Virus record (IMG/VR): IMGVR_UViG_3300028392_000221
Location: 1 to 30,250 of that record
DNA from: a virus
Direction: 5' to 3' (one strand)
DNA: 30,250 nt
Shown: piece by piece, positions 2 through 16,550 of the stretch
Layout: each line of letters begins with the position of its first letter
How positions within the stretch are numbered: the first letter of the stretch is position 1
Made by a program: the position numbers and the translations under genes
Notes under the pieces: generated by a model
What the model was told of the DNA's origin: nothing
The model's database searches: none
What the model saw: the letters and a program-made list of their open reading frames with translations, nothing else

Positions 2-220
2 ATGCGCAAAGGGCGGCTGCCAAAGAACGCCCCGGTGCATATGCAGGCCATGCACAAGCTGTCCATGGAGGAGATTCGCGGGGCGGTGGAGGGTAGCAGT
101 TCGAACGACGTTCGGTCGCGTTTAGCGTGGAAGATCATCCACGAGTTCGCGCCGCAGGCCGAGGCGTCGGACAACTTGTGGGTGCAGTTGGTGTATGGGC
201 TGGCGGGTGCCGGTTCTTGA
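2..220 (+). CDS. Hypothetical protein, possibly cut at its start by the window edge
   Basis: I do not recognise this 72-aa product. An ATG lies at base 2, but only one base precedes it, so the real gene may begin upstream. The protein is mixed helical and charged, with a basic start (MRKGRLPKN) and no membrane segment. It ends with TGA inside the first base pairs of the iteron array that follows, so its 3' end and the repeat region overlap by a few bases. It reads in the same direction as the cysteine-rich protein and nuclease downstream and could belong to the same early unit. Function unknown. Confidence 0.5.
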   Translation: MRKGRLPKNAPVHMQAMHKLSMEEIRGAVEGSSSNDVRSRLAWKIIHEFAPQAEASDNLWVQLVYGLAGAGS

Positions 221-276
221 ATGTGTTGAATGTGTTGAGTGTGTTTTGAATGTGTTACACATTCAACACATTCAAG
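216..276. repeat. Iteron array 1: four direct and two inverted 9-bp units
   Basis: TTGAATGTG occurs at 217-225, 226-234 and 246-254, TTGAGTGTG at 235-243, and the reverse complement CACATTCAA at 258-266 and 267-275. The outer parts form a perfect 20-bp inverted repeat (216-235 with 257-276). It could also fold as a hairpin after the upstream stop codon, but there is no T-run, so a terminator is less likely than a protein-binding array. Confidence 0.85.
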
Positions 277-296
277 GAAAGGCAGGGTCGGATCGT

Positions 297-324
297 TGCA
301 GTGCGCGCTGTAAAGCGCACTGCA
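297..324. repeat. 10-bp-stem inverted repeat in the candidate origin
   Basis: TGCAGTGCGC (297-306) pairs with GCGCACTGCA (315-324) around an 8-base loop. It lies between iteron array 1 and the DnaA boxes. It has no T-tail, so it is more likely a structural or protein-binding element than a terminator. Confidence 0.7.
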
Positions 325-343
325 CGTCCACCATCCGGTAGAG

Positions 344-364
344 TTATCCACAGAGTTATCCACA
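344..364 (+). promoter_or_regulatory. Pair of perfect DnaA boxes
   Basis: TTATCCACA occurs at 344-352 and again at 356-364, 12 bp apart start to start and in the same orientation. Both match the E. coli high-affinity DnaA box. They sit between the two iteron arrays, which supports binding of the host initiator here. Confidence 0.75.
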
Positions 365-385
365 GGCTGGGTTGGTTTTGAGTTC

Positions 386-452
386 TTGAGTGTGTTGAAT
401 GTGTTGAGTGTGTTTTGACTATAGGCAACACATTCAAGCCAACACATTCAAG
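386..452. repeat. Iteron array 2: three direct and two inverted 9-bp units
   Basis: TTGAGTGTG at 386-394 and 404-412 and TTGAATGTG at 395-403 are followed by inverted CACATTCAA at 429-437 and 443-451. The left half copies array 1 almost exactly. The inverted half differs in spacing (14 bp rather than 9 bp), so the two arrays look like an old duplication that has since diverged. Confidence 0.85.
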
Positions 453-490
453 AGAAAAAGAGTTGCTTAAAAAAGAGGCAGGATTTTGAA

Positions 491-988
491 ATGACACAAA
501 GTGCAATAGAGAAGGCGCTGGCAACCCCTGCCGGCATGGTCCTAGAGAAGCTGCGGGCGGAGCTAGGGGGGCGATGGCTGGAACCCGGCGATGACCCCGA
601 CGATCGGGTCAAGTGCGACGAGTGCGCCTGCAAGATGACGGCCTTTGCCGTTATGCGGTTCTCGTCAGATCAGTTCGAGCGCATACGCAAGAACAACCTC
701 AAACCCACCCAGTGGATGTTCGGGGTGGCCCGAATAAAGAACGGCCGGGTCACGGTGCCGTACCAGAACACCTTCTGCACGGCCACCAATCTGGACGTGC
801 TGCCGATACCGCACCGCTGCCACCTGTACAAGCCAAAGGGCGCCCCGGTCGAGGAAGGGGTAAACTGGTTCGATGACGACCCGGCCACGCCAGCAGCAGG
901 AGCACAACGAGCAGACCAAGCTGGTGATGTGGGTGCGGTCGTTCCTGCCCGAGGTGCTGATCGTGGCGATACCCAATGGTGGGACTAG
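491..988 (+). CDS. Cysteine-rich (zinc-binding type) phage protein of unknown function
   Basis: A 165-aa protein with a good ribosome site (AGGA seven bases before the ATG). It carries C42-x2-C45-x-C47 and later C96 and C110-H111, a spacing that suggests a metal-binding fold. The remaining sequence is soluble. From about residue 129 the sequence turns to low-complexity Ala/Asp/Gly/Arg text; this is where the gene overlaps the start of the nuclease gene in another frame (873-988), so this tail may be dispensable. The gene is coupled to the nuclease and may act with it, but no function can be assigned from sequence alone. Confidence 0.7.
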   Translation: MTQSAIEKALATPAGMVLEKLRAELGGRWLEPGDDPDDRVKCDECACKMTAFAVMRFSSDQFERIRKNNLKPTQWMFGVARIKNGRVTVPYQNTFCTATNLDVLPIPHRCHLYKPKGAPVEEGVNWFDDDPATPAAGAQRADQAGDVGAVVPARGADRGDTQWWD

Positions 989-1238
989 GAACCCCAAGGA
1001 GGCCATCAAACTGAAAAGTGAGGGGGTACTAGCCGGAATGCCCGATCTCGCGATTTTGGAGCCTTCCGGGGCCTTCCATGGCCTGTTTATTGAGATGAAG
1101 ACCGAGGACGGCGTGGTCAGTGATGCGCAGAAGAAAATACACGCGGTGCTCAAGCAGCGCCATTATGTCGTGCGGGTCTGCCGGTCGTTCGAGGAGGCCA
1201 AGCGCGAGGTGCTGGATTATCTCAAGCACGCAAAATAA
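873..1238 (+). CDS. VRR-NUC domain nuclease
   Basis: A 121-aa protein that is almost entirely a VRR-NUC domain, a member of the PD-(D/E)XK nuclease superfamily found as stand-alone genes in phages. The visible motifs are AIPNGG (32-37), PD at 57-58, the E-x-K pair E74 and K76 in IEMK, and Q86 after the G-x-V-S turn. The C-terminal part (HYVVRVCRSFEEA) is the usual final strand and helix. Stand-alone VRR-NUC proteins are thought to cut branched or flap DNA; which substrate applies here is unknown. The start at 873 gives the normal N-terminus of the family, so the 116-bp overlap with the preceding gene appears real. A GAGGAAGGGG run lies upstream of the ATG. A terminator follows directly. Confidence 0.9.
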   Translation: MTTRPRQQQEHNEQTKLVMWVRSFLPEVLIVAIPNGGTRNPKEAIKLKSEGVLAGMPDLAILEPSGAFHGLFIEMKTEDGVVSDAQKKIHAVLKQRHYVVRVCRSFEEAKREVLDYLKHAK

Positions 1239-2803: not shown

Positions 2804-3673
2804 TTACAGGTAGGCGTGCTCGTAGGCTGCGACGAACTCGTCGGTGGACTTGCCCTGCTTGAGTTGGGCAAGGCCGTCAGCGAGGCTCCACAGGGCCTTG
2901 TTGAGCTTCACGTTCTCGTTGACGCCACCCACCTCGCGGGTGGACATGCGGCGGCCAGTGGCGCTGCGGCCACGCACGCCGCCGCGAACCAAGTTCTCCT
3001 GCACGCGGTTGAAGGTCGTCCATAGGTCGTCCTTGTAGTCAGCGTGGCGCTGGGGGTGCAGCACGCCGAAGGTGTTCACCGGGGCAGCGCCTTCGTCCCA
3101 GCGGAGCTGGAGCGCTGAGCTTGCGAAGACGTGCTGCTCTTGGTCTGTCAGGGTGATGGACTTGTACTCGGCGATGCGGTCGGTGACGGCCTCTGCGGCC
3201 TCCACGACGCGCCATGAGGCGTCGATCACGTCGCCCACCACGTTGCCGCTGTGGCGCACGCGGATGTCGTCGTGCACGTTGCCTGCGATCAGGCCGTTGG
3301 AGCACACGAAGCGGAACACGCCGGACATGATTTGGTAGGAGCTTGTGCCGTCGTGGCTGTTGACCAAAACGATCTCGGGCACTTCCTCGGTGGTCTGAAT
3401 GTGCGAGGCGTGGCGCAGGCGCACGAGGTGCTTGGTGTGCTCACGCTTGCTGGAGTCACGCACGCGGGTCTGACGCACCTCGTAGGGCTCGAAGCCCTCG
3501 GCACGCAGGCCGTCGATCACTTGGATCGTGGGGATGAAGCTGTAGCGCTCGCCACGGCTTTCGTGCGCCTCGTGGGCCATCACGCTGGGCGCGAAGCGGG
3601 CGATCATGTCGTTGGACAAGGGGGACTGAGCGCGGAAGGTGGCTTGATTGGAAGAGCGGCCAAAGTGGTACAT
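2804..3673 (-). CDS. DUF932 family protein
   Basis: A 289-aa protein that matches the DUF932 (phage/plasmid-like) family. The hallmark is the central stretch EIVLVNSHDGTSSYQI followed by a G-V-F-R-F-V-C-S-N-G-L pattern (about residues 102-131). A helical region and a basic Arg/Gly linker (GGVRGRSATGRR, about 230-241) follow. DUF932 proteins are common on plasmids and phages, near recombination or anti-restriction genes, but have no proven activity. AAGGA precedes the ATG at 3673. It heads a unit driven by the promoter-like site at 3731-3758 and followed by two small genes. Confidence 0.9.
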   Translation of the reverse strand: MYHFGRSSNQATFRAQSPLSNDMIARFAPSVMAHEAHESRGERYSFIPTIQVIDGLRAEGFEPYEVRQTRVRDSSKREHTKHLVRLRHASHIQTTEEVPEIVLVNSHDGTSSYQIMSGVFRFVCSNGLIAGNVHDDIRVRHSGNVVGDVIDASWRVVEAAEAVTDRIAEYKSITLTDQEQHVFASSALQLRWDEGAAPVNTFGVLHPQRHADYKDDLWTTFNRVQENLVRGGVRGRSATGRRMSTREVGGVNENVKLNKALWSLADGLAQLKQGKSTDEFVAAYEHAYL

Positions 3674-4989: not shown

Positions 4990-5184
4990 CGCATTTGTTT
5001 TAATTGAAAACTGCAAGTCGATTAGTTTTTCCTATCGCAGTTTGCTGGCCTGTGCGACCATCAAGCCACTGAAAAAGAGCGCGTGATGCGCCTGCGCACG
5101 CGTAGCATGAAGCGTGCCAAGTGCCAAAAAATGGCTTATGCACCAAAATGGTGAAAACGCCTAAAAGGGGCCTAGAAGGGCCGC

Positions 5185-5196
5185 GTTTCCGGTAAC
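5185..5196. promoter_or_regulatory. Fourth copy of the GTTTCCGGTAAC element, without a promoter
   Basis: The 12-bp element is identical to that at 4973-4984, but no TARMAT box follows it. It lies in the non-coding control region between the leftward genes and the DnaA-box cluster, so it may be a regulator site connected with replication or looping rather than a promoter. Confidence 0.55.
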
Positions 5197-5220
5197 CTAG
5201 GGGGTAGGTGCCTAAAATAC

Positions 5221-5453
5221 TTGTGATCGCTTCTAGGGGTGTTTTAACGCGTTTTAGAGGGGGTAGGGTTATCCCTAGTTTTGTGGATAACTTGGCCTTT
5301 TTTGGCAAAAAAAATGTGGATAACTCTCCGACCACTGTGGATATGTATAACCTGTGGATAACATCCTGTGGATAACTTTCTTGGTTATCCACAGGAAGGA
5401 ATAAGCTGTGGACAAGTTGCGTTGCCGGGTGAAAGTGTGGTAGATTTCGCCGC
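5221..5453. other. DnaA-box cluster, candidate replication origin
   Basis: Five perfect DnaA boxes (TGTGGATAA at 5282-5290, 5315-5323, 5353-5361 and 5367-5375; TTATCCACA at 5385-5393) and two with one mismatch (5336-5344 and 5407-5415) occupy 134 bases. A T-run and A-run (5297-5314) between the first two boxes could ease strand opening. This density of the host initiator's site is that of a chromosomal or plasmid origin. The rest of 4990-5280 holds no gene that I can support, only scattered short CCTAGGGG-like repeats. Alternatives are a DnaA-regulated promoter region for the late genes or a DnaA-titration site. Confidence 0.7.
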
Positions 5454-5846
5454 ATGAGCGACCTCGAGCCAAATCAGCAAATTACCAGCGAGCCTGCTAA
5501 ACCCAAAGCGAAGCGGGGCGGTGCGCGCCCAAACAGTGGCGGCGCCCGACCCGGTTCAGGCAGACCAACTGGGCCGGGCGTGCAGGAACTGCGCAATGCG
5601 CTGATGACCAAAGTGCTGAGCGAGTACAAGATCACGCCGTTGCAGTACATGCTGGCCGTGCTCAACGGTGAGGACGCCGAGGCCACCAGCAAGGCCGACA
5701 AGCAGTGGGCCGCTAACGCGGCGGCGCCCTACATGCATGCCCGCCTGTCGCAGGTCAACGCGACCACCGACAACAAGCACACCATCGACACCACCGAGGC
5801 CGCTGCCCTGACCAAGGACATCGTCGGCTCCATGTTCGGGACCTGA
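5454..5846 (+). CDS. terS: Terminase small subunit
   Basis: A 130-aa protein placed directly before the large terminase with a 3-base gap. Residues 21-42 are a Gly/Arg/Pro-rich basic stretch (GGARPNSGGARPGSGRP), followed by helices (ELRNALMTKVLSEYKITPLQYMLAVL) and a segment PYMHARLSQVNA. The ITPLQYML and AAPYxHxRL patterns are typical of a terminase small-subunit family in podoviruses and related phages. This subunit recognises the packaging site and regulates the large subunit. The ribosome site is poor, and the start lies 39 bases after the last DnaA box, so its promoter must lie within or beside the origin-like region. Confidence 0.8.
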   Translation: MSDLEPNQQITSEPAKPKAKRGGARPNSGGARPGSGRPTGPGVQELRNALMTKVLSEYKITPLQYMLAVLNGEDAEATSKADKQWAANAAAPYMHARLSQVNATTDNKHTIDTTEAAALTKDIVGSMFGT

Positions 5847-5849
5847 CCC

Positions 5850-7277
5850 TTGACCGAGGTGGCCGAGCGCCCGAAGCTGACGCAGGCCGAGGTCGAGGCC
5901 AAGCTGGCGACTCTGCCCCTGTACGCGCTCAAGGCGGTCAAGGCCCGCACCGCGTGGCTCAAGACGGCCCACGACTACCAAGTGCCCGAGCGCGACTCCC
6001 TGTGGGACTCGTGCCATATCTACTTGCTCCTTGCGGGTCGCGGCGCGGGCAAAACTCGGGCGGCCGCTGAGTGGCTGTGGTGGCAGGCTTGGACCAACCC
6101 GGGCACGCGCTGGCTGATCAGCGCCCCAACGGCAGCCGACGTGCGCGACGTGGCGTTCAGCGGTGACTCCGGCATCTTGACGGTCTGCCCGAAGGAGATC
6201 ATCAAAAGCCACATGGTTACCACGGCGGAGATACAACTCATAAACGGAAGCATCATCAAGGGCATCCCGGCGTCGGAGCCCGAGCGCTTCCGGGGGCCGC
6301 AGTTCCATGGGGGCTGGCTGGACGAGCTTGCTGCATGGGACCAGCTAGACGAGGCGTGGTCGCAGATTCAGTTCGGCATGCGGCTGGGCAAGCATCCGCG
6401 CCTGATGTGCACGACGACGCCCCGGCCCAAGCCGCTGATCTTCGACCTCGTCGAGCGCGACGGCCACGACGTCTGCTACGTCAGCGCCACGACCTACGAC
6501 AACCTCGACAACCTCGCGCCCACCTTCCGGGCGCAGATACTCCAGTACGAGAACACCGCGCTGGGCGAGCAGGAGATCAACGCGGTGCTGCTCGACCCGA
6601 GCGATCACGGCATCATCAAGCAGTCGTGGTTCCGGCTGTGGGACGCGGACCGGCCGCTGCCCATGTTCACCATGGTGATCCAGTCCTACGACTGCGCCAC
6701 CAGCGAGAAGACGCAGAACGACAGCACGGCCTGCGTCGTGCTGGGCGTGTTCAAGCCCGAGGACCGGCCGACCAGCGTGATGGTGATCGACGCGTGGTCT
6801 GAGCGCATCCAGTACCCTGACCTGCGGGCCAAGGTGATCGAGCACTACGGCGAGGTGTACGGCGACCCGGACGAGTTCGGCTCGGGCAAGAAGACCGACA
6901 TCATGCTGATCGAGGACAAGAGCGCGGGCATCAGCCTGATCCAAGACCTCCAGCGTGCCGGCATGCCTGTGCGGGCCTACAACCCCGGCCGGGCCGACAA
7001 GGTGCTCAGGGCCAACCTCGTGGCGCCGATCATCGAGCGCGGCCTGCTGTACCTGCCCGAGAGCGACCGCACGCCCGGCACGGCGCGCTCGTGGCTCAAG
7101 GACGCCATCAACCAGTGGTGTGCCTTCCCCGAGGTCCGGCACGACGACTACGTTGACGCCCTGACCCAAGCGTTGCGCTACCTCAAGGATGCAGGGATAA
7201 TCCGCATCGACCCAGCGGACATCCCCGACGAGTACGCGGACGACGTCCGCCCTCGCTTCAACCCATACGCCCAATAG
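5850..7277 (+). CDS. terL: Terminase large subunit (packaging ATPase and nuclease)
   Basis: A 475-aa protein. The ATPase domain shows Walker A AGRGAGKT (62-69) and Walker B WLDEL (156-160), followed by a CTTTPRP coupling motif (188-194). The RNase H-like nuclease domain shows D281 in QSYDCA, E355 in MLIEDKSAG and the HDDYVDA motif (431-437). It pumps DNA into the procapsid and cuts the concatemer. Length and motif order are normal for the family. The first in-frame ATG lies past Walker B, so a rare start is required: TTG at 5850 or GTG at 5859. Neither has a good ribosome site, and coupling to the small subunit is likely. Confidence 0.95.
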   Translation: MTEVAERPKLTQAEVEAKLATLPLYALKAVKARTAWLKTAHDYQVPERDSLWDSCHIYLLLAGRGAGKTRAAAEWLWWQAWTNPGTRWLISAPTAADVRDVAFSGDSGILTVCPKEIIKSHMVTTAEIQLINGSIIKGIPASEPERFRGPQFHGGWLDELAAWDQLDEAWSQIQFGMRLGKHPRLMCTTTPRPKPLIFDLVERDGHDVCYVSATTYDNLDNLAPTFRAQILQYENTALGEQEINAVLLDPSDHGIIKQSWFRLWDADRPLPMFTMVIQSYDCATSEKTQNDSTACVVLGVFKPEDRPTSVMVIDAWSERIQYPDLRAKVIEHYGEVYGDPDEFGSGKKTDIMLIEDKSAGISLIQDLQRAGMPVRAYNPGRADKVLRANLVAPIIERGLLYLPESDRTPGTARSWLKDAINQWCAFPEVRHDDYVDALTQALRYLKDAGIIRIDPADIPDEYADDVRPRFNPYAQ

Positions 7278-7288
7278 GAGCCACGGCC

Positions 7289-9994
7289 ATGGCAAGCATC
7301 GAAGACATGATCAAGGAAGCCCAAGGGCCGGTGCCGCGCCGTCGCCAAGACTCGATGCGCGCCACGCCGCGCAACGCCGCGCTGGGCTCCGTGGCCGACC
7401 TGCTGGCGGCGGCATCCAGCCCCGAGCGGACCCAGCACATGCAGATGATGGCCGACACGTTCCAGTTGCCGTCCATGGCAAAGACCTTGGACCTGCTGTC
7501 CTACGGTGAGCCGCTGACCACCGGGGCTGGAGGCCTTGGCGGCACGACCCGGGTCAAGCCCGAGGTGCTGGACACGGCCATGAACTTGGCCCCATTCGCT
7601 GGCGACGTACTGGCGGCCACCAAGGGCCTGCCGGTCGGGCTGGGCACCAAGATGGTATCGAGCAAAGCGGCCAAAGCTGTGACCGAAGCCGAGCCCAAGA
7701 TGTCAGAGGCGCAGAAGGCCGTGATAGCCCGCTTCAACAAGGAACAACAGGCTAGCCCCTCGTCGGCCTTAACCGGGGCATTGGCGCCATCTAAGCAGCC
7801 GGTGAGGGGCAACACCAGTGCTGAGCTTCAGCGCATGCAAAAGGGCGCTTTAAACGACGATCAGAAGGAACTGCTTGAAATTTATTCGCAGAAGCACCCC
7901 GGCTTTGGCGAGGCGGCCAAATTCATGACGCCGCAGGAACTGACCAAGATTCTTGGCAACCCCAACGGCATCCGCGAGATGACCCGGCTGCTCGAGGTGC
8001 TGCCGCAGGCCAAAGAACTGGCCTCGGTCACCAAGGCTGGCGCTGAGAAGCAGGGCTGGTATCGCGCCTCGACGCAAGCTTTGATTGACGTGTTCGGTGT
8101 CGATGACGCGCCACGGTTTGCCGCGCTGCTGGCCGCCCAGTCCCCACAGACGTCTGTGGAAATGAACCTGACCAACTCACTGAACACTTGGAAGAACTGG
8201 ACGGCAGCCGGGCGCCCAACCGACGCCAAGTCGATCAAGGCCATCATGGGCCAGAGTGTCGCCGGTACGAAGGGCGAGGAGTCCGTGCTCGACGCATGGG
8301 TCAACAACAGCGTGCGCGCCCTGTCCAACCCCGACCCCACCAAGGTCGTGCTGTCTGGCCCCAAGGTTGACTCGTTCTTCCATAACTTGGCCGATGACGT
8401 CTACCGCGTGACCAATGACGCGTGGATGTCAAACGGCCTAAAGGTGAGCCAGCAGTCCTTTAGCGGGTCGCCCACGGCCCTGCAACTGGCCGCTGGTGAC
8501 CCGGGCCTATCCCCCGGCTACATCGGCACCAACGTGCGCATGCGCCAAGCGGCACAGAAGGCTGGCATGTACCCATCGGAGGCGCAAGAGACGGCATGGT
8601 CGTGGTTCATGCCCTTGATGGAAATGCAAACCAGCACCGGCATGCCTGCCCGCGAGATATTGCAAAAGGGCCTGCTGACGCCTGAGATGATTCGCGGCAC
8701 GCCCGACTTCTCCAGTTTGTTGCGCCAAGGCAACTATGGAAAAATCCTTGAGGAGGCTGGATACGGGGACCAATTGGCTGCATTGAAGCCGCACGATTGG
8801 CAGCGCCCCAAGTACGACATGTCTATGTCGGACCAGCGCAACTTGGAGGATATTGCCGGTAACCTCGAGAACTTGGGCCGGATGCGTCAAAGCTCTAGGC
8901 GATTCACAAGCTTGGGTATGCCTGCCGAGGAGGCCGCGTTACCTGAAACAGGATTCTTCACCAAGAACCAAGAGTACATCCCGGGGCAGGGCACGGGGCA
9001 TTTGGAGTACCTGATCAATGCGCCTGAGTCGGTCCGCAAGAATGTGTCGTCCAAGCTTTCCAACGCCTTCAACGACCAGCAAAACCGCAATCTTCTGTTA
9101 AGTGCCGCTGGCTACGAGCCGCTGCCGACTACGCCATTCACTGGGTCTTTCCGTCCACCGGGAGGCATTGGCAATGTCGGACCAAGGGCCGAGCCACCGT
9201 TTATTTCTGAAGAGGCATTCAACCAGCCCGGCATGGGTTTGCGTCCGTCTATGCCCGGAAGGCATGCCATGGAGTCGCAGCCCGGCTATGGTTCAACGGT
9301 TGAGTTACCTATAAGATTTAAAGGCGAAGAGCCTTCATTGAACCCAAAAGATCAATCTGTGATGGACGCCATCGCTGCAATTGAAGGCGGCATGACGGCC
9401 CAACTTGGAACGCCATACAGCGGCGCCATACCGCATAAAACTGGCCCCGGCCTGTTTGTCAAGTCGGAAAAGAAGGTTCCCGCTGAGAACATGTCGTATG
9501 CTGGGTCCATACTTGATCCGGGCACCGAAGCCGTTGCCGACACTGGCCGTGGCGCCACTGTGTTAAATTGGGGCGATCCATTTAACAAAACTCAAGCAGA
9601 GAAAATCAAGGAAATGCTTGGCGGAAGTGATGTGCTCAGAGTACATACTCCGGGCAATTACATAGATTACTCGGGTGAATTTGCTGCACCCCAAGGCTCT
9701 GGAGCGGTTACCCAGAAGATGCTTGACTACTTCTCCAAGATGCCGAAGTCCAAACAAAATGCTGTCAGTGAAGCTGCCAAGCGTCCTGCCGAAGATGTGT
9801 ACGACATTTACCGGAAACTGCAAGAGAAAACAAATGAGCCGACCAGAGAAGATTTAATGAACATGCTTGAGATCATTAAAAAATTTGGCATTGCTGGTTT
9901 GCCAGCCGCGTTGGCGTCTGGCGTTTCCTTGGCCGGTCAAGAATCTAGCGCAATCCCGCCGTCTGTATCGGACCTTGCCGAAGAGCCAAATTGA
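7289..9994 (+). CDS. Large virion-associated protein with a possible HhH-GPD-like domain
   Basis: A 901-aa protein between the large terminase and portal, with AGGAG eight bases before the ATG. Residues 1-250 are Ala-rich and helical. Residues 255-440 form a compact domain: LLAAQSPQTSV (280-290), SGPKVDSFFHN (356-366) and NDAWM (376-380). This pattern resembles the HhH-GPD DNA glycosylase fold, with K359 and D377 spaced 18 residues apart as in E. coli endonuclease III (K120 and D138). The rest is low in recognisable motifs and ends with a hydrophobic helix (about 873-888). Its size and position suggest a virion or ejected protein. Codons become more A/T-rich after about base 9200. It overlaps the leftward gene at its 3' end. 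Confidence 0.65.
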   Translation: MASIEDMIKEAQGPVPRRRQDSMRATPRNAALGSVADLLAAASSPERTQHMQMMADTFQLPSMAKTLDLLSYGEPLTTGAGGLGGTTRVKPEVLDTAMNLAPFAGDVLAATKGLPVGLGTKMVSSKAAKAVTEAEPKMSEAQKAVIARFNKEQQASPSSALTGALAPSKQPVRGNTSAELQRMQKGALNDDQKELLEIYSQKHPGFGEAAKFMTPQELTKILGNPNGIREMTRLLEVLPQAKELASVTKAGAEKQGWYRASTQALIDVFGVDDAPRFAALLAAQSPQTSVEMNLTNSLNTWKNWTAAGRPTDAKSIKAIMGQSVAGTKGEESVLDAWVNNSVRALSNPDPTKVVLSGPKVDSFFHNLADDVYRVTNDAWMSNGLKVSQQSFSGSPTALQLAAGDPGLSPGYIGTNVRMRQAAQKAGMYPSEAQETAWSWFMPLMEMQTSTGMPAREILQKGLLTPEMIRGTPDFSSLLRQGNYGKILEEAGYGDQLAALKPHDWQRPKYDMSMSDQRNLEDIAGNLENLGRMRQSSRRFTSLGMPAEEAALPETGFFTKNQEYIPGQGTGHLEYLINAPESVRKNVSSKLSNAFNDQQNRNLLLSAAGYEPLPTTPFTGSFRPPGGIGNVGPRAEPPFISEEAFNQPGMGLRPSMPGRHAMESQPGYGSTVELPIRFKGEEPSLNPKDQSVMDAIAAIEGGMTAQLGTPYSGAIPHKTGPGLFVKSEKKVPAENMSYAGSILDPGTEAVADTGRGATVLNWGDPFNKTQAEKIKEMLGGSDVLRVHTPGNYIDYSGEFAAPQGSGAVTQKMLDYFSKMPKSKQNAVSEAAKRPAEDVYDIYRKLQEKTNEPTREDLMNMLEIIKKFGIAGLPAALASGVSLAGQESSAIPPSVSDLAEEPN

Positions 9995-10148
9995 CTTCAG
10001 CTATGACTTCCCTCGGAGCCTCATCCCACCCAAAGCGTTTGAACATGCCAATGACACGCTGCCCATCCTCTCTGATGTACTCGACGGATAAGAATTCTCC
10101 ATTATTTTCTACGTCTACGACCTTTGCTTTGCGTTCTTCCAGTTCCAT
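9945..10148 (-). CDS. Small leftward gene within the head block (moron-like)
   Basis: A 67-aa protein, MELEERKAKV..., read against the surrounding late genes. An AAAGGA ribosome site lies seven bases before the ATG, and the intergenic space upstream is A/T-rich. It is charged and beta-type in the first half (VVDVENNGEFLSVEYIREDGQ), like a small barrel. Its last 50 bases overlap the 3' end of the 901-aa gene in antisense. Isolated genes of opposite orientation in a late operon are often later insertions expressed on their own. Function unknown. Confidence 0.7.
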   Translation of the reverse strand: MELEERKAKVVDVENNGEFLSVEYIREDGQRVIGMFKRFGWDEAPREVIAEVNLALRQGPIQTAGLR

Positions 10149-10229
10149 GGTTTTTCCTTTAAACGGTTAAGTGGAACCAAATAGTAACATACTTTTTGTT
10201 AATTTAAAAAAATCTTTGTGAGAAAAACC
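10149..10229. promoter_or_regulatory. A/T-rich divergent intergenic region
   Basis: Eighty-one bases separate the start of the leftward gene from the portal start and are much richer in A/T than their flanks. A 12-bp inverted repeat, CCATGGTTTTTC (10145-10156) with GAAAAACCATGG (10222-10233), contains both start codons. Several weak -10-like boxes (around TACTAT, leftward) are present, but I cannot fix a promoter. Confidence 0.4.
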
Positions 10230-12740
10230 ATGGCAATTGAATTCCCTCAACCGCAAGAAGACATCACCAGCAGTCCTGAGGACGACGAGGGCATGTCCTT
10301 CGACTTGGGCGCCGAGGAGATGTCAGACGTTGAAGAGCAGCCCGACGGCTCGGCCATTGTCCGCATGGAAGAGAAGATTGGTCCTGTTGAGGATGAAGAT
10401 TTCTACGGCGACATGACCGGCAGCCTGAAGTCATGGGACCTTAGTTCCATCGGCATGAAGTACTTGGACCTGATTGACAAGGACAAGCAGGCCCGCGAGG
10501 ATCGCGACAAGCAGTACGAAGAAGGCTTGAAGCGCACCGGCCTAGGCCACGACGCGCCGGGCGGGGCGATGTTTCAGGGGGCCAGCAAGGTTGTGCACCC
10601 GATCATGGCCGAGGCCTGCATCGACTTCGAGTCCCGCGCTATCAAAGAGATGTTTCCGCCGGACGGCCCCGTGCGCACTAACATTAAGGGCGAGGCAGAC
10701 CAAGAGGCCGTCGCCCGCGCTGACCGCAAGCGCGACTGGATGAACTGGCAGTTGACTGAGCAGATCGTCGAGTTCCGCGACGAGGAAGAGCAGATGCTGA
10801 CCCAATTGCCTTTGGGCGGATCGCAGTACCTGAAGATGTGGTACGACGAGCGCAAGCGCCGTCCCTGCGCCGAGTTTGTGCCGATCGACAACGTAATCAT
10901 CCCATTTGCCGCCGGCAACTTCTACACGGCGCAGCGCGTCACCGAGGTGCACTACATCACCCAGCAGGAGTTTGACAGCCGGGTCAAGTCCGGCCTGTAT
11001 CGCGACGTGGACGTGGGCTTTGCCAGCATGGAGCCCGAGACTACCGGGCCGGGAAAGGCCAACAACAAGATCGAGGGCCGCAAGTGGCAGGACAACGAGG
11101 ACGGCCTGCGCCGCGTGTACCACATATACGCGTACATGGACATCGAAGAGGATGAGGAAACTGGCGGCGAAACCGCTCCGTACATCCTGATGGTTGACGA
11201 GAACTCCACCGAGGTGCTGGGCCTGTACCGCAACTGGGAAGAGGGCGACGAGACCATGACCAAGCTGGACTGGCTCATCGAATTTAAGTTCATCCCATGG
11301 CGAGGTGCCTATGCGATTGGTTTTCCTCACCTCATTGGTGGTCTATCTGCTGCTCTTACTGGGGCTTTGCGTGCTCTGCTGGACACTGCTCACATAAACA
11401 ACAGCGCCACCATGCTAAAGTTAAAGGGCGCCAAGATGTCCGGCCAGAGCCAGAACATCGAAGTGACCCAAGTGACAGAGGTAGAGGCCGCCCCGGGCGT
11501 GGACGACATCCGCAAGATCGCCATGCCGATGCCTTTCAATCCGCCAAATCCTGTCCTGTTCCAGCTTTTGGGCTGGCTGACCGACGCAGCCAAGGGTGTT
11601 GTGACCACATCCGAGGAAAAAATTGCCGATGTGAACTCCAACGCGCCGGTCGGCACCACGCAGGCACTGATCGAGCAGGGCGCCGCAGTGTTCTCGGCCA
11701 TCCATGCCCGCCTGCATGACTCGCAAAAGCGTGTTTTGAAGGTCCTGAGCCGCATTAACCGCTGGTATTTGGACGAGATGCACCGTGGTGAGTCAATTTC
11801 CGACTTGGAAATCAGCCGCGATGACTTCAAACGCAATGACGACGTCATTCCGGTAAGCGACCCGCACATCTTCTCCGAGACGCAGCGCATGGCCCAGACC
11901 CAAGCGGTCTTGGCGATGATGGACAAGTACCCCCAGCACTTCGACCAGCGTGCGGTTCTTGAGCGCGCCATGCGCCAGATGAAGATTCCTAACCTGAACG
12001 AGCTGATGCCTAACTCCACGGACCCCGAGGAGTTGAACGCGGCAGAGGAAAACGCGGCCATGGCTATTGGCCGGGCGGCGTTTGCCTACGCCAATCAGGA
12101 CCAATTGGCGCATTTGCAGTCTCACTTGGACTTCTGCCTCAACCCAATCCTCGGTGGCAACCCAATCATTGCGCCGCAGTGCATCCCGCAGCAGCTTGAG
12201 CACATCAAACAGCACATTACCCTGTGGTATTTGCAGCGCATGAACGGATATGTGACCAAATCCATGAACGGACCCGTCAAAGACTATGGACAGTCTCCGT
12301 TGACTGGTCAGATTGACAAGCTGTACGCCTTGGCGTCGCAGCACACCAACTTAGACGCGCAAAAAGCGTTTGAAAAAATGCTGCCTGCCATCCAAAAGAT
12401 CACCGAGATGGCGAAACAGTTTGCTCCCAAGCCACAGATGACCAGCGACGACATGGTTTACATGCAAACCAGCATGGCCGAGACGCAGCGTCGTGCGGCA
12501 AAGGACCAAGCAGACACGGCATTGGCCCGCGACAAAATGCAGGCCGACGCCTTACGCGAAAACCGCTCGCAGCAGATCGAGATTGCGTTGAACGCCAACG
12601 ACAACTTGACCGACGAGCGCATCAAAACTGCGGAAATCTCGCACGACGCGCAGGTTTTGCAGCACGAGCAGCAGAAAACTGCTCTTTCCGCGCTACAAGG
12701 CGCACAACAATCCCTAGGAGGCCAATATGGCGGAACGTGA
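10230..12740 (+). CDS. Portal protein
   Basis: An 836-aa protein with an acidic N-terminal tail (residues 1-60, rich in Asp and Glu), a conserved core (for example SKVVHPIMAEACIDFESRA and GSQYLKMWYDERKRRP) and a long helical, Gln-rich C-terminal part. This matches the large portal type of podoviruses related to P22. The portal forms the dodecameric ring at one capsid vertex through which DNA enters and leaves. I chose the ATG at 10230; a GTG at 10218 would add four residues but has no better ribosome site. The long C-terminal helix region (about 690-836) would form the barrel that reaches into the capsid. It overlaps the next small gene by 14 bases. Confidence 0.85.
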   Translation: MAIEFPQPQEDITSSPEDDEGMSFDLGAEEMSDVEEQPDGSAIVRMEEKIGPVEDEDFYGDMTGSLKSWDLSSIGMKYLDLIDKDKQAREDRDKQYEEGLKRTGLGHDAPGGAMFQGASKVVHPIMAEACIDFESRAIKEMFPPDGPVRTNIKGEADQEAVARADRKRDWMNWQLTEQIVEFRDEEEQMLTQLPLGGSQYLKMWYDERKRRPCAEFVPIDNVIIPFAAGNFYTAQRVTEVHYITQQEFDSRVKSGLYRDVDVGFASMEPETTGPGKANNKIEGRKWQDNEDGLRRVYHIYAYMDIEEDEETGGETAPYILMVDENSTEVLGLYRNWEEGDETMTKLDWLIEFKFIPWRGAYAIGFPHLIGGLSAALTGALRALLDTAHINNSATMLKLKGAKMSGQSQNIEVTQVTEVEAAPGVDDIRKIAMPMPFNPPNPVLFQLLGWLTDAAKGVVTTSEEKIADVNSNAPVGTTQALIEQGAAVFSAIHARLHDSQKRVLKVLSRINRWYLDEMHRGESISDLEISRDDFKRNDDVIPVSDPHIFSETQRMAQTQAVLAMMDKYPQHFDQRAVLERAMRQMKIPNLNELMPNSTDPEELNAAEENAAMAIGRAAFAYANQDQLAHLQSHLDFCLNPILGGNPIIAPQCIPQQLEHIKQHITLWYLQRMNGYVTKSMNGPVKDYGQSPLTGQIDKLYALASQHTNLDAQKAFEKMLPAIQKITEMAKQFAPKPQMTSDDMVYMQTSMAETQRRAAKDQADTALARDKMQADALRENRSQQIEIALNANDNLTDERIKTAEISHDAQVLQHEQQKTALSALQGAQQSLGGQYGGT

Positions 12741-12897
12741 AGTAAATCAATCGGGCTCTGACGTGCCCATGCACAAACGAATTGCCATGGGCCAAAGCCT
12801 AGATGGCACGAAGCTGGAGGGCGGCGGCAAGTCTCAGCCCAAGTCAGGCAACTCTGAGAAAAAACAAAGCGGTCTGGCCGCCCTGAAGAAAAAATAA
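12727..12897 (+). CDS. 56-aa basic low-complexity protein
   Basis: A short gene, MAEREVNQSG..., ending with LAALKKK. An excellent ribosome site (TAGGAGG) precedes its ATG, which lies inside the last codons of the portal gene, and its TAA overlaps the next ATG as TAATG. Rich in Lys, Gly, Ser and Gln and probably unstructured. The position between portal and co-chaperonin suggests a small assembly or virion component, but nothing in the sequence proves it. Confidence 0.75.
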   Translation: MAEREVNQSGSDVPMHKRIAMGQSLDGTKLEGGGKSQPKSGNSEKKQSGLAALKKK

Positions 12898-13085
12898 TGC
12901 GGTACGTTAGCGACTTTATCGGTGCGATAGAAGCTGAACAAGGACGTATTGCAGGATCGTTAGCTGTTGGCAATGCCAACAGCTACGAAGCCTACCAATA
13001 TCTGGTAGGAGAGCACCAAGGGCTTGCAAAAGCTCTGGAAATTTTAAACAACCTTTTAAAGGAAGAAGACGTAGATGAGCGATGA
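12897..13085 (+). CDS. Small helical protein
   Basis: A 62-aa acidic protein, MRYVSDFIGA..., predicted to be one or two helices (AYQYLVGEHQGLAKALEILNNLL). The ATG overlaps the previous stop, and the 3' end overlaps the next start by 11 bases, so the three genes are tightly coupled. Small helical proteins of this kind are common next to portals in phages of this type. Function unknown. Confidence 0.75.
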   Translation: MRYVSDFIGAIEAEQGRIAGSLAVGNANSYEAYQYLVGEHQGLAKALEILNNLLKEEDVDER

Positions 13086-13509
13086 ACAACCGGTAGCTTC
13101 GAACGAAGCAGCGTTGCAGGAAGCATTTCCAGCAGTTGATCCCGGTGCAATCCCAGCAGGTGGTCGAGTTCTTGTGCAGTGGCGTGCCACGGCAGAAAAG
13201 ACGACCGCGTCTGGAATCGTACTTGTTGAAGAGACCAAGGAAACCGAAAAGTGGAATAACCAAGTGGCGAAAGTCATTTCGATGGGTCCACTAGCTTTCA
13301 AAAAACGCGACAGTCTTGAGCCGTGGCCTGAGGGCAACTGGATTGAGATTGGTGACTATGTCCGCATGCCCAAGTGGGGCGGGGACCGTTGGGAAGTGCC
13401 TTACGGCGACCCAAAAGAGGGCAAAACAGCCCTTTTCAGCGTGTTTAACGACCATGAGGTGATCGCCAAGGTCACCACAGACCCATTGAAAGTGAAGGCA
13501 TTCCTATGA
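13075..13509 (+). CDS. GroES-like co-chaperonin (Cpn10 family)
   Basis: A 144-aa protein with a recognisable Cpn10 fold. GGRVLVQW (29-36) is the first strand. The mobile loop TTASGIVLVEE (43-53) keeps the I-V-L tripeptide (48-50) by which GroES contacts GroEL. KVISMGP (66-72) follows, then the late strands GDYVRMP (93-99) and a C-terminal NDHEVIAKV. An N-terminal acidic extension of about 25 residues and an insert between residues 74 and 90 make it longer than GroES (97 aa). Phage co-chaperonins such as T4 gp31 replace GroES for folding the capsid protein, and this gene lies just upstream of scaffold and capsid genes, consistent with that job. Confidence 0.8.
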   Translation: MSDEQPVASNEAALQEAFPAVDPGAIPAGGRVLVQWRATAEKTTASGIVLVEETKETEKWNNQVAKVISMGPLAFKKRDSLEPWPEGNWIEIGDYVRMPKWGGDRWEVPYGDPKEGKTALFSVFNDHEVIAKVTTDPLKVKAFL

Positions 13510-14435
13510 ACCAAACAGAAAAGCTTGAGATGCAGGTGGACGAGGAGAGCGACGGCTCCGCGACCGTATCCCTGCCCGAACACATGGAGTCTCCCGACGA
13601 CATGGAAGATAACCGTGGCTCAAACGATGCAGCAGGGTCCGATCCGGACCGTGAAGCTATCCGAGCAGCCCGCCGGGAGGAGCGGAACCTGAAAAAACGG
13701 TTCCACAAGGCCAAAATCAACGAATCCAGCCATCTGATCAACTCGCTCAAGCGCCAGAATGAGCAGATGGCGGAGCGGCTGGTCGCACTTGAGAAGCGAT
13801 CGGCAGGCGCCGACGTTGCCCGGGTAGACAAGGCCATTGAGGACGCCCAAATGCGCCTTCAGTACGCCAAAGAGCAGATCAAACAGGCCACCGAGGTGGC
13901 TGACGGGACTGCTTTGGCTAACGCTCAGGAGATTTGGTACGAGGCCCGGAACCAAGTTGAGGCCCTCAATAACCTGAAGAAAAAGGTTGTTTCCACCCCT
14001 GATCCCTCCAGTATTCCTAAGGCGGCTGACCCCCGGCTGAAGAAGAACGCCGAGGATTGGATGTCCCGAAACAACTGGTACGACCCCAACGGAGGGGATA
14101 CCGACTCCCAAATCGCCATTAAGGTCGACGAGTCGATGCTTAAAGACGGCTGGGACCCAACCGATCCTGATTATTGGGAAGAGTTGGACAATCGATTGAC
14201 GAAGTATTTGCCGCACCATTACAATGGGGGCGACGGTCGTTCGTCAAATAGGAGACCCCGTTCCGTGGTTACAAGTTCTGGTCGCGAATCCTCAAGGATG
14301 GCTGGCGGAAACGAATTTCGTTTGTCGCCGGAGCGAGTGCGGGCCATCAAAGAAGCAGGACGTTGGGATAACCCAACAGAGCGCGAAAAGATGATCCGCA
14401 AGTATGCAGAATATGACCGCATGAATAGGAGTTAA
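13506..14435 (+). CDS. Scaffold-like protein
   Basis: A 309-aa protein whose ATG overlaps the previous stop as ATGA. It has an acidic N-terminus (residues 1-45), a long charged helical region with heptad character (about 50-165, including LINSLKRQNEQMAERLVALEK) and a basic, Ser/Arg-rich C-terminal part. Acidic, coiled-coil proteins located between portal and major capsid genes are usually scaffolding proteins that shape the procapsid and then leave. The C-terminal segment (NEFRLSPERVRAIKEAG...) resembles the short ends of such proteins that bind the capsid. The assignment rests on position and composition. Confidence 0.7.
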   Translation: MNQTEKLEMQVDEESDGSATVSLPEHMESPDDMEDNRGSNDAAGSDPDREAIRAARREERNLKKRFHKAKINESSHLINSLKRQNEQMAERLVALEKRSAGADVARVDKAIEDAQMRLQYAKEQIKQATEVADGTALANAQEIWYEARNQVEALNNLKKKVVSTPDPSSIPKAADPRLKKNAEDWMSRNNWYDPNGGDTDSQIAIKVDESMLKDGWDPTDPDYWEELDNRLTKYLPHHYNGGDGRSSNRRPRSVVTSSGRESSRMAGGNEFRLSPERVRAIKEAGRWDNPTEREKMIRKYAEYDRMNRS

Positions 14436-14437
14436 TT

Positions 14438-14977
14438 ATGTCAGATGAACGATTAAGAAAAGACCTCTCACTTGGTGGACGCGAGTCTCGCGCAAAGCAA
14501 GATAGTCAACGCGGTTCCGCTTCAAATGAGTTGGCAAGTCAACAGGAGCGTCGTAAGATGTTCCGCAACGAGTGGGTTCAAGAATCCCTACCGACCCCGC
14601 CTGATATTCCGGGGTTTCACTGTATTTGGCTTTCTTCCACAAACGGGTATGACCCAATCCATAAGCGTCAGCGGATGGGGTACACGCCAGTCGCCATCGA
14701 CGAGGTTCCGGGCTTTGAAAACTTTAAAGTTAAAGCAGGCGAACACTCAGGACTTGTTGCTTGCAACGAGATGATTCTCCACAAGATTCCCCTAGACATC
14801 TTTCAACAGATTATGGAGGAACTTCACCACTTTGCACCTCAGGACGAGGCGGACAAAATCCGTGTTCAAGCTGAGCAACAAATTGGACGAGATAGTAATG
14901 GTCGACGTTTAGGTATGGTTGAAGGCGAAGGTATCAGTGAGCTTGATAAACCTATGCCCGTTCCGGTATTTTCCTGA
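14438..14977 (+). CDS. Conserved phage structural-block protein, unknown function
   Basis: A 179-aa protein with AGGAG eight bases before the ATG. A polar N-terminus (1-40) is followed by FRNEWVQESLPTPPDIPGFH, then WLSSTNGYDPIHKRQRMGY and a segment VKAGEHSGLVACNEMILHKI. This order (basic tail, LPxPP, C/I-WLS-TN-DPI-KR, GEHSG) recurs in head-gene blocks of freshwater and marine phages, where it lies between scaffold and capsid. Its exact role has not been established as far as I know. A virion or head-assembly role is inferred from position. Confidence 0.75.
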   Translation: MSDERLRKDLSLGGRESRAKQDSQRGSASNELASQQERRKMFRNEWVQESLPTPPDIPGFHCIWLSSTNGYDPIHKRQRMGYTPVAIDEVPGFENFKVKAGEHSGLVACNEMILHKIPLDIFQQIMEELHHFAPQDEADKIRVQAEQQIGRDSNGRRLGMVEGEGISELDKPMPVPVFS

Positions 14978-15009
14978 CGGACTTGTTAACTAACTTGGAG
15001 TAAGAACTT

Positions 15010-15624
15010 ATGGCTTCTACATCTGCTCCGTTCGGCTTACGCCCTGCATACCATCCTAGCGGATTGGATCGTGCACAGGCGTTGGCTGGCGGTATCGTCT
15101 CTGGATATTCCACAGACATTTTGAAAGGCGCACCAATTCGCTACAACAGTACCGCTGGTACTTCTGTGGCGGCAGGTACGATCACTAACGCTGCGGCGAC
15201 TGGTGTTTGGACTGGTGCATTTGCTGGCGTCGAGTGGACTGATACCACTGGTCGTCGTCGTGTTAGCAACTACTGGCCCGCAAGCACATCATATGTGACC
15301 GGATCGTGCGTTGCTTATTTCTACAACGATCAAAACATCGTTTACGAAATTCAAACCGACGCAACCATTGCTCAGACCTCTCTGGGCGGCGAATACAACT
15401 TCTCCGCTGGTACTGGCTTTACCGTTACATCTGGTTCCAACACCACTGGCCTGTCTACGACAGCCCTTGGAGTTTCTACCGCTGCTGCTAATGGTTCACA
15501 AGGTCAGATGCGTGTCGTTGACATTGCCCCTTATGCTGATAACGCTTGGGGTGACGCCTACGTTATTGTTCGTGTTGTCAACGCTTCGTCTCAGTACTTC
15601 GGTTCTGTGACAGCTATTGTCTAA
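15010..15624 (+). CDS. Putative head decoration or minor capsid protein
   Basis: A 204-aa protein starting MASTSAPFGLRPAYHPSG, the typical opening of a family of capsid-associated phage proteins found beside the major capsid gene. It is beta-rich, with a GVFxGxxxTDTTGR-type element (GAFAGVEWTDTTGRRRVS) and SNYWPAS, then a Ser/Thr/Gly-rich C-terminal part. GGAG precedes the ATG. It may bind to the capsid surface as a cement or decoration protein; this is inferred from position and family resemblance. Confidence 0.75.
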   Translation: MASTSAPFGLRPAYHPSGLDRAQALAGGIVSGYSTDILKGAPIRYNSTAGTSVAAGTITNAAATGVWTGAFAGVEWTDTTGRRRVSNYWPASTSYVTGSCVAYFYNDQNIVYEIQTDATIAQTSLGGEYNFSAGTGFTVTSGSNTTGLSTTALGVSTAAANGSQGQMRVVDIAPYADNAWGDAYVIVRVVNASSQYFGSVTAIV

Positions 15625-15635
15625 GGAGTAGTTAA

Positions 15636-16550
15636 ATGGCTGCACCAATGAGAAGTACGGACTTCCGTAGTATTGTTGAACCTATCCTCAACGAATGCTT
15701 CGATGGAGTCTATGACCAACGTAAAGACGAGTGGTCGCGTGTTTTCCGCGAGGAAAATGGTATCCCCCGTAACTACCACGAAGAGCCGGTTCTGTACGGT
15801 TTTGGCGCGGCTCCGCAGTTGCCTGACGGCACTCCGGTTTCGTACCAACAAGGTGGTGTTCTGTTCCTCCAGCGCTATGTCTACCAAGTCTATGGTTTGG
15901 CATTCGCTCTGACCAAAGTTTTGGTTGAGGACGGTGACCACATCCGTATCGGTCAGGTTTACGCTAAGCACTTGGCTCAATCTCTGATTGAAACCAAGGA
16001 AACCCTGTCTGCGAACGTGTTGAACCGTGCGTTCAACTCATCGTATGTCGGCGGCGACGGCGTATCCCTGATCAACACTGCTCACCCCATCGTGAACGGT
16101 ACTTTCAGCAACCAACTGTCCACATCGGCAAACCTGTCGCAGACATCTCTAGAGCAGATGCTGATTCAAGTTCGTCAAGCAGTGGACAACAACGGCAAGC
16201 GTATTCGTCTGGTGCCCCGCCAACTGGTGGTCGCCCCCGGCAATATTTTCCAAGCCGAAGTGCTGCTGAAGTCTGTTCTGCGTGCAGGCACTGCAAACAA
16301 CGACATCAACCCAGTCAAGTCTATCGGCTTGCTGGACGAAGGTGCCGCTGTTATCAGCCGTCTGACCAGCGCTAACGCATGGTGGGTCCAGACCGACGCT
16401 CCCGAGGGCCTCAAGCTCTTGATGCGTCGTGAACTGGAGAAGACCATGGAAGGCGACTTTGAGACCGATTCGATGCGCTACAAGGCCACCGAGCGTTATC
16501 AAGTGGGTTGGACTGACCCACGTTCGCTGTACGGTACTGCTGGCGTTTAA
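15636..16550 (+). CDS. Major capsid protein (Mu gpT-like)
   Basis: A 304-aa protein that resembles the Mu gpT-like major head subunits. Typical parts are the N-terminal helix (MRSTDFRSIVEPILNEC), KDEWSRVFREE (29-39), the LALTKVLVED-type spine helix (here FALTKVLVEDGDH), the LSANVLNRAFNSS helix, and LVVAPGNIFQAEVLLKS near 200. The length is right for an HK97-fold subunit. It has an AAGGAG ribosome site seven bases before the ATG and is followed by a hairpin, consistent with high expression. It forms the icosahedral shell. Confidence 0.9.
   Translation: MAAPMRSTDFRSIVEPILNECFDGVYDQRKDEWSRVFREENGIPRNYHEEPVLYGFGAAPQLPDGTPVSYQQGGVLFLQRYVYQVYGLAFALTKVLVEDGDHIRIGQVYAKHLAQSLIETKETLSANVLNRAFNSSYVGGDGVSLINTAHPIVNGTFSNQLSTSANLSQTSLEQMLIQVRQAVDNNGKRIRLVPRQLVVAPGNIFQAEVLLKSVLRAGTANNDINPVKSIGLLDEGAAVISRLTSANAWWVQTDAPEGLKLLMRRELEKTMEGDFETDSMRYKATERYQVGWTDPRSLYGTAGV

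Follow-up and report, generated by a model that had tools for sequence, protein, structure and literature searches.

A repeat-and-hairpin cassette beside a phage primase-helicase gene is a probable replication origin with lineage-specific repeat units

The DNA analysed here, called the window, is the whole of a linear viral contig of 30,250 bp (IMG/VR record IMGVR_UViG_3300028392_000221). Close to its left end a repeat locus separates a primase-helicase gene, of which the 3' end is present, from a gene for a small zinc-type protein, which is followed by a VRR-NUC nuclease gene. The features of this region are, in window positions:

2-220, plus strand: C-terminal end of the primase-helicase gene, truncated by the contig end; stop codon TGA at 218-220
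217-275: array 1, with units at 217, 226, 235 and 246 (plus) followed by 258 and 267 (minus)
297-324: middle hairpin, 10-bp stem and 8-nt loop; pairing kept, stem sequence lineage-dependent
386-451: array 2, with units at 386, 395 and 404 (plus) followed by 429 and 443 (minus)
413-424, plus strand: core of array 2, a T-run and then CTATAG (TTTTGACTATAG), immediately before the first inverted unit
453-480, plus strand: A-rich stretch, a weak candidate unwinding region by composition only, partly conserved in L015
491-988, plus strand: small zinc-type protein (C-x2-C ... C ... H-x-C), a conserved neighbour
873-1238, plus strand: VRR-NUC nuclease gene, a conserved neighbour

The product of positions 2-220 shares 75% identity with the C-terminal part of the L113/L063 primase-helicase, and the L063 protein contains the domains PriCT_2 and AAA_25. 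Judged by this similarity, the left flank of the arrays is the end of a primase-helicase gene, which was not visible to the earlier reader of the window, whose account we refer to as the original prediction. A single-sequence scan with the zinc-type protein gave no relatives. From 5.4 kb onward the window encodes terminase, portal-like and capsid proteins, 'portal-like' being a label given by position and size only. One contig (G002; L087, L111, L112) is 95% identical to window positions 6367-16273 and represents a near relative with other contig ends; it carries no exact DnaA box.

The original prediction described eleven copies of TTGARTGTG in two arrays and both orientations, a 20-bp inverted repeat with perfect arms, a 37-bp segment duplicated with a single mismatch, a hairpin with a 10-bp stem and two perfect DnaA boxes, all within positions 213-452. 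Each of these elements was recovered, and the span is correct. The eleven copies are exact and all lie within 217-451, with 0 copies in the rest of the window (shuffles: mean 0.76, maximum 4). The arms of the inverted repeat are at 216-235 and 257-276, and the duplicated segments at 213-249 (plus) and 382-418. Between the arrays, the hairpin stem (297-306/315-324, loop of 8 nt) was not equalled by any of 300 shuffled versions of the 104-bp gap, and the DnaA boxes follow at 344-352 and 356-364 (both plus). The term 'iteron-like' is reasonable for these tandem and inverted units as far as their arrangement goes; the unit itself, with 8-11 bp, is unlike classic plasmid iterons, which measure 17-22 bp.

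A profile search with the primase gave 48 loci, of which 44 were readable past the primase stop. An array-hairpin-array cassette was present in all 44 of these relatives, counting two records (L117, L139) that end inside the cassette at the contig end and one (L140) that ends just after it. The same cassette was also found between the primase stop and the next gene in L080, MW202879, L088 and L160; in the two distant relatives L088 and L160 its orientation is reversed relative to the primase. In public annotation the cassette of L161 (MW202879.1, positions 3078-3311) is entered as a hypothetical protein gene, which it probably is not. The plan is tripartite: direct and inverted repeats form the first array, a hairpin follows, and the second array surrounds a small core and a T-run. 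The layout of array 1 is common to all relatives read, and the 14-bp spacing of the inverted units in array 2 is shared by lineages A, B and E. Searches of phage and plasmid DNA with the cassette returned only unrelated matches or matches to DnaA boxes.

The repeat unit itself changes. By sequence, at least seven lineages could be distinguished, each with its own unit; the classes were assigned by eye, and many of the records are fragments:

Lineage A (the window's lineage): TTGAATGTG
Lineage B: TTCGACGGTG, 10 bp, carried by L080
Lineage C: GTCGACCGGAC
Lineage D: GTCGAAGGGAC
Lineage E: GTCGRRGATACC and variants
Lineage F: TCAAGGGGTG
Lineage G: AACGTCTAG

Unit and layout of another lineage A record, G001, are identical to those of the window. 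The primases of class C are 81-84% identical to each other and go with one shared unit; between classes C and D, primase identity is about 70% and the units differ. All lineage units resemble each other in a T-C/T-G/A-A/G start, which suggests that they diverged from one ancestral site. The original prediction had counted absence of the repeats from close relatives against itself; since the layout is kept and the unit changes by lineage, this does not apply as worded. In lineage E, the start of the zinc-type gene (e.g. L119, about position 5470) holds an extra copy of the unit, GTCGAGGATAC or GTCGAGGGGAC, within the codons for ESRIQ or ESRGQ.

The middle stem is wholly different in sequence between lineages and its pairing is kept; 11 of 14 stems lie beyond 95% of shuffles, those of B and F being imperfect, and in lineages E and D paired changes that preserve the stem were read by eye. 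Just ahead of the first inverted unit of array 2, most relatives carry a T-run together with a related core (TTTTCCCTATAG, TTTTCCTTAAGG, TTTTCCCATGGG and similar). This core is typically CC-WW-GG and keeps a near-constant distance to that unit.

One rival reading is a structured RNA: the stretch from the primase to the zinc-type gene would be an mRNA leader or attenuator whose hairpins act after transcription. Every piece folds stably (z from -3.2 to -12), several stems show, by eye, G-T and not A-C mismatches, and the plus strand gives the better fold in 21 of 22 relatives. This advantage is matched by dinucleotide shuffles, so that composition explains all of it, and the RNA reading was dropped. 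A strand bias that is compositional, together with the reversed cassettes of L088 and L160, speaks for a site acting as DNA. Rfam gave nothing above threshold, only sub-threshold hairpin matches, mostly to miRNA families, and a leader would leave unexplained the switch in GC skew described below. We consider an RNA function very unlikely.

The minimum of the detrended cumulative GC skew over the whole record fell in the cassette or at most 221 bp upstream of it in 15 of 16 long relatives. These 15 cover lineages A, C, D and E and include one complete circular genome; records are related within lineages, so that about four independent lineages carry the test. The exception, G033, is a 20.7-kb fragment and the sole record of lineage G that was tested. 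The test covers relatives, as the window has only about 200 bp to the left of array 1. Additionally, the third-codon-position skew of plus-strand genes flips at the cassette in 14 of 15 records, from between -0.08 and -0.19 before it to between +0.02 and +0.18 after it, the flip not being base-exact. In G001 this skew, based on few genes, only becomes less negative (-0.146 to -0.043); the overall GC-skew minimum of G001 is at the cassette. As the flip occurs within genes of the same strand, gene direction does not explain the switch.

Given the GC-skew minimum in relatives and the conserved placement beside the primase-helicase gene, the cassette is very probably the bidirectional DNA replication origin of the phage. 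The original prediction of an iteron-controlled plasmid-type origin is borne out in that respect, but the DnaA boxes are not a defining part. The cassettes of three of seven lineages (A, B, E) have such boxes; those of C, D, F and G have none, even when one mismatch is allowed. From this distribution the boxes are lineage-specific and accessory to the cassette.

Arrays of short tandem and inverted units are also known as operators and centromeres of ribbon-helix-helix proteins. A partition (centromere) or repressor protein array merely beside the origin would have a similar appearance, and would agree with most skew minima lying just upstream of the arrays and not inside them. We regard it as unlikely, as a search of 13 records, fragments among them, detected no ParA (PF13614), and as no neighbour was seen to track the cassette through the relatives except the primase and the zinc-type protein. 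No tyrosine integrase was found in the same 13 records either, which leaves the suggested phage-plasmid lifestyle unsupported.

Packaging sites are likewise repeat-bearing and divergent, and in MW202879 the cassette is about 1 kb from an annotated small terminase gene. That the cassette is a cos or pac site recognised by the small terminase is nevertheless very unlikely: in the window 5 kb separate it from the terminase genes, a skew minimum is not predicted, and most terminase relatives, though many are fragments, are without primase and cassette. Among 17 records with relatives of the packaging gene, the cassette was found only in L088, the one which also encodes a primase relative.

The original prediction called the locus a second possible origin, next to a DnaA-box cluster 5 kb away. 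The cluster exists, with five exact boxes at 5282-5393. The region 5282-5415 lies upstream of a small terminase-like gene, and boxes are clustered in the near relatives L063 and L077-L082 too, as would be expected if the true origin were here and the arrays an accessory control site. We give this little credence, since there is no skew flip at the cluster in the window or in G001, the skew minimum of G001 is at the arrays, and lineage E records have no such cluster away from the cassette. The cassette is thus the better candidate for the main origin.

Several known origins can be compared with the cassette. The pRN1 origin is a stem-loop that immediately follows the prim-pol/helicase gene orf904 and is poorly conserved in sequence and conserved in structure, and the same stem-loop origin has been proposed for the BPP-1/BIP-1 phages, which have PriCT_2-type proteins (PMC4234260). 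Similarly, a non-coding stem-loop is found directly 3' of the primase-helicase gene in all relatives read, and pairing in the cassette is kept although the sequence is not. The cassette differs in its two repeat arrays and separate hairpin, pRN1 being without iterons, and in a helicase that is AAA_25/DnaB-like and not of superfamily 3. By analogy it may work like a pRN1-type origin with added repeat arrays; because the helicase type differs, we do not file it as a member.

Satellite phage P4 carries iterons at ori and crr. The P4 alpha protein combines primase and helicase, recognises the origin via a winged-helix domain and has a primase of the bacterial (Toprim) type (PMC4234260). One primase and helicase protein with short repeats near its gene is common to both systems; the Toprim primase of alpha and the repeat unit are different, and in the window the units occur at this single locus only, compared with the two sites of P4. 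For iteron-type origins, the PLE satellite origin served as comparison together with iteron plasmids (PMC7145576). As in iteron plasmid origins, an array of directly repeated units adjoins the candidate initiator gene, and direct and inverted repeats, an initiator gene and, in some members, DnaA boxes are shared. Besides the shorter unit, the differences are that DnaA boxes are optional and that the likely initiator is the primase-helicase and not a separate Rep. The nearest precedents are the pRN1 stem-loop origin and the P4 alpha/iteron origin; the cassette would be a variant of this kind, and a new one.

The primase C-terminus, modelled with confidence (pLDDT 87.9), gave weak matches to the winged-helix region of CRP/CAP (Z about 3). 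A sequence search of solved structures with the primase found none, and Foldseek gave no significant match for the models of the primase C-terminus and the zinc-type protein. By analogy with P4 alpha and pRN1 (PMC4234260), the primase C-terminus is taken as the likeliest binder of the units, and we lean towards this assignment; the zinc-type protein is an alternative candidate. The C-terminal domain, probably a winged helix, would bind the units of both arrays; binding would bend and melt the T-rich core and extrude or expose the central stem. Loaded as helicase, the primase-helicase itself could then prime both forks, with host DnaA probably helping the melting in lineages A, B and E. Unit and initiator would change together, giving each phage lineage its own origin specificity.

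It is possible, though rather doubtful, that the cassette stands for a widespread and previously undescribed class of phage origin, in which the unit is a lineage-specific code diversifying under selection, while the mechanical tasks fall to the layout, the middle stem and an unchanging T-run with its small core. Such a code could reflect e.g. escape from competition, satellites or origin-directed nucleases. In any case, the uncultivated PriCT_2/AAA_25 phages, a large group, gain a concrete candidate origin in the cassette, and its natural unit variants, paired with diverged initiators, open origin-initiator co-evolution to swap tests. Switches in strand composition can also locate phage origins with a precision of a few hundred bases.

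A serine resolvase gene lies 1-2 kb from the cassette in all five lineage E contigs tested and in MW202879, and is absent from the tested A, C and D records. A resolvase site was therefore rejected for the window's lineage, the gene being found only in lineage E. A clear cassette was not seen in the PriCT_2 phages GB2A, pYD21-A and phiHSIC. In Pseudoalteromonas phage H103 (L165), a 505-bp non-coding region (5166-5670) lies 3' of the PriCT-2 primase gene; it contains a 19-bp stem and repeated TTGATAGTA/TACTATCAA, and is possibly an origin of the same type.
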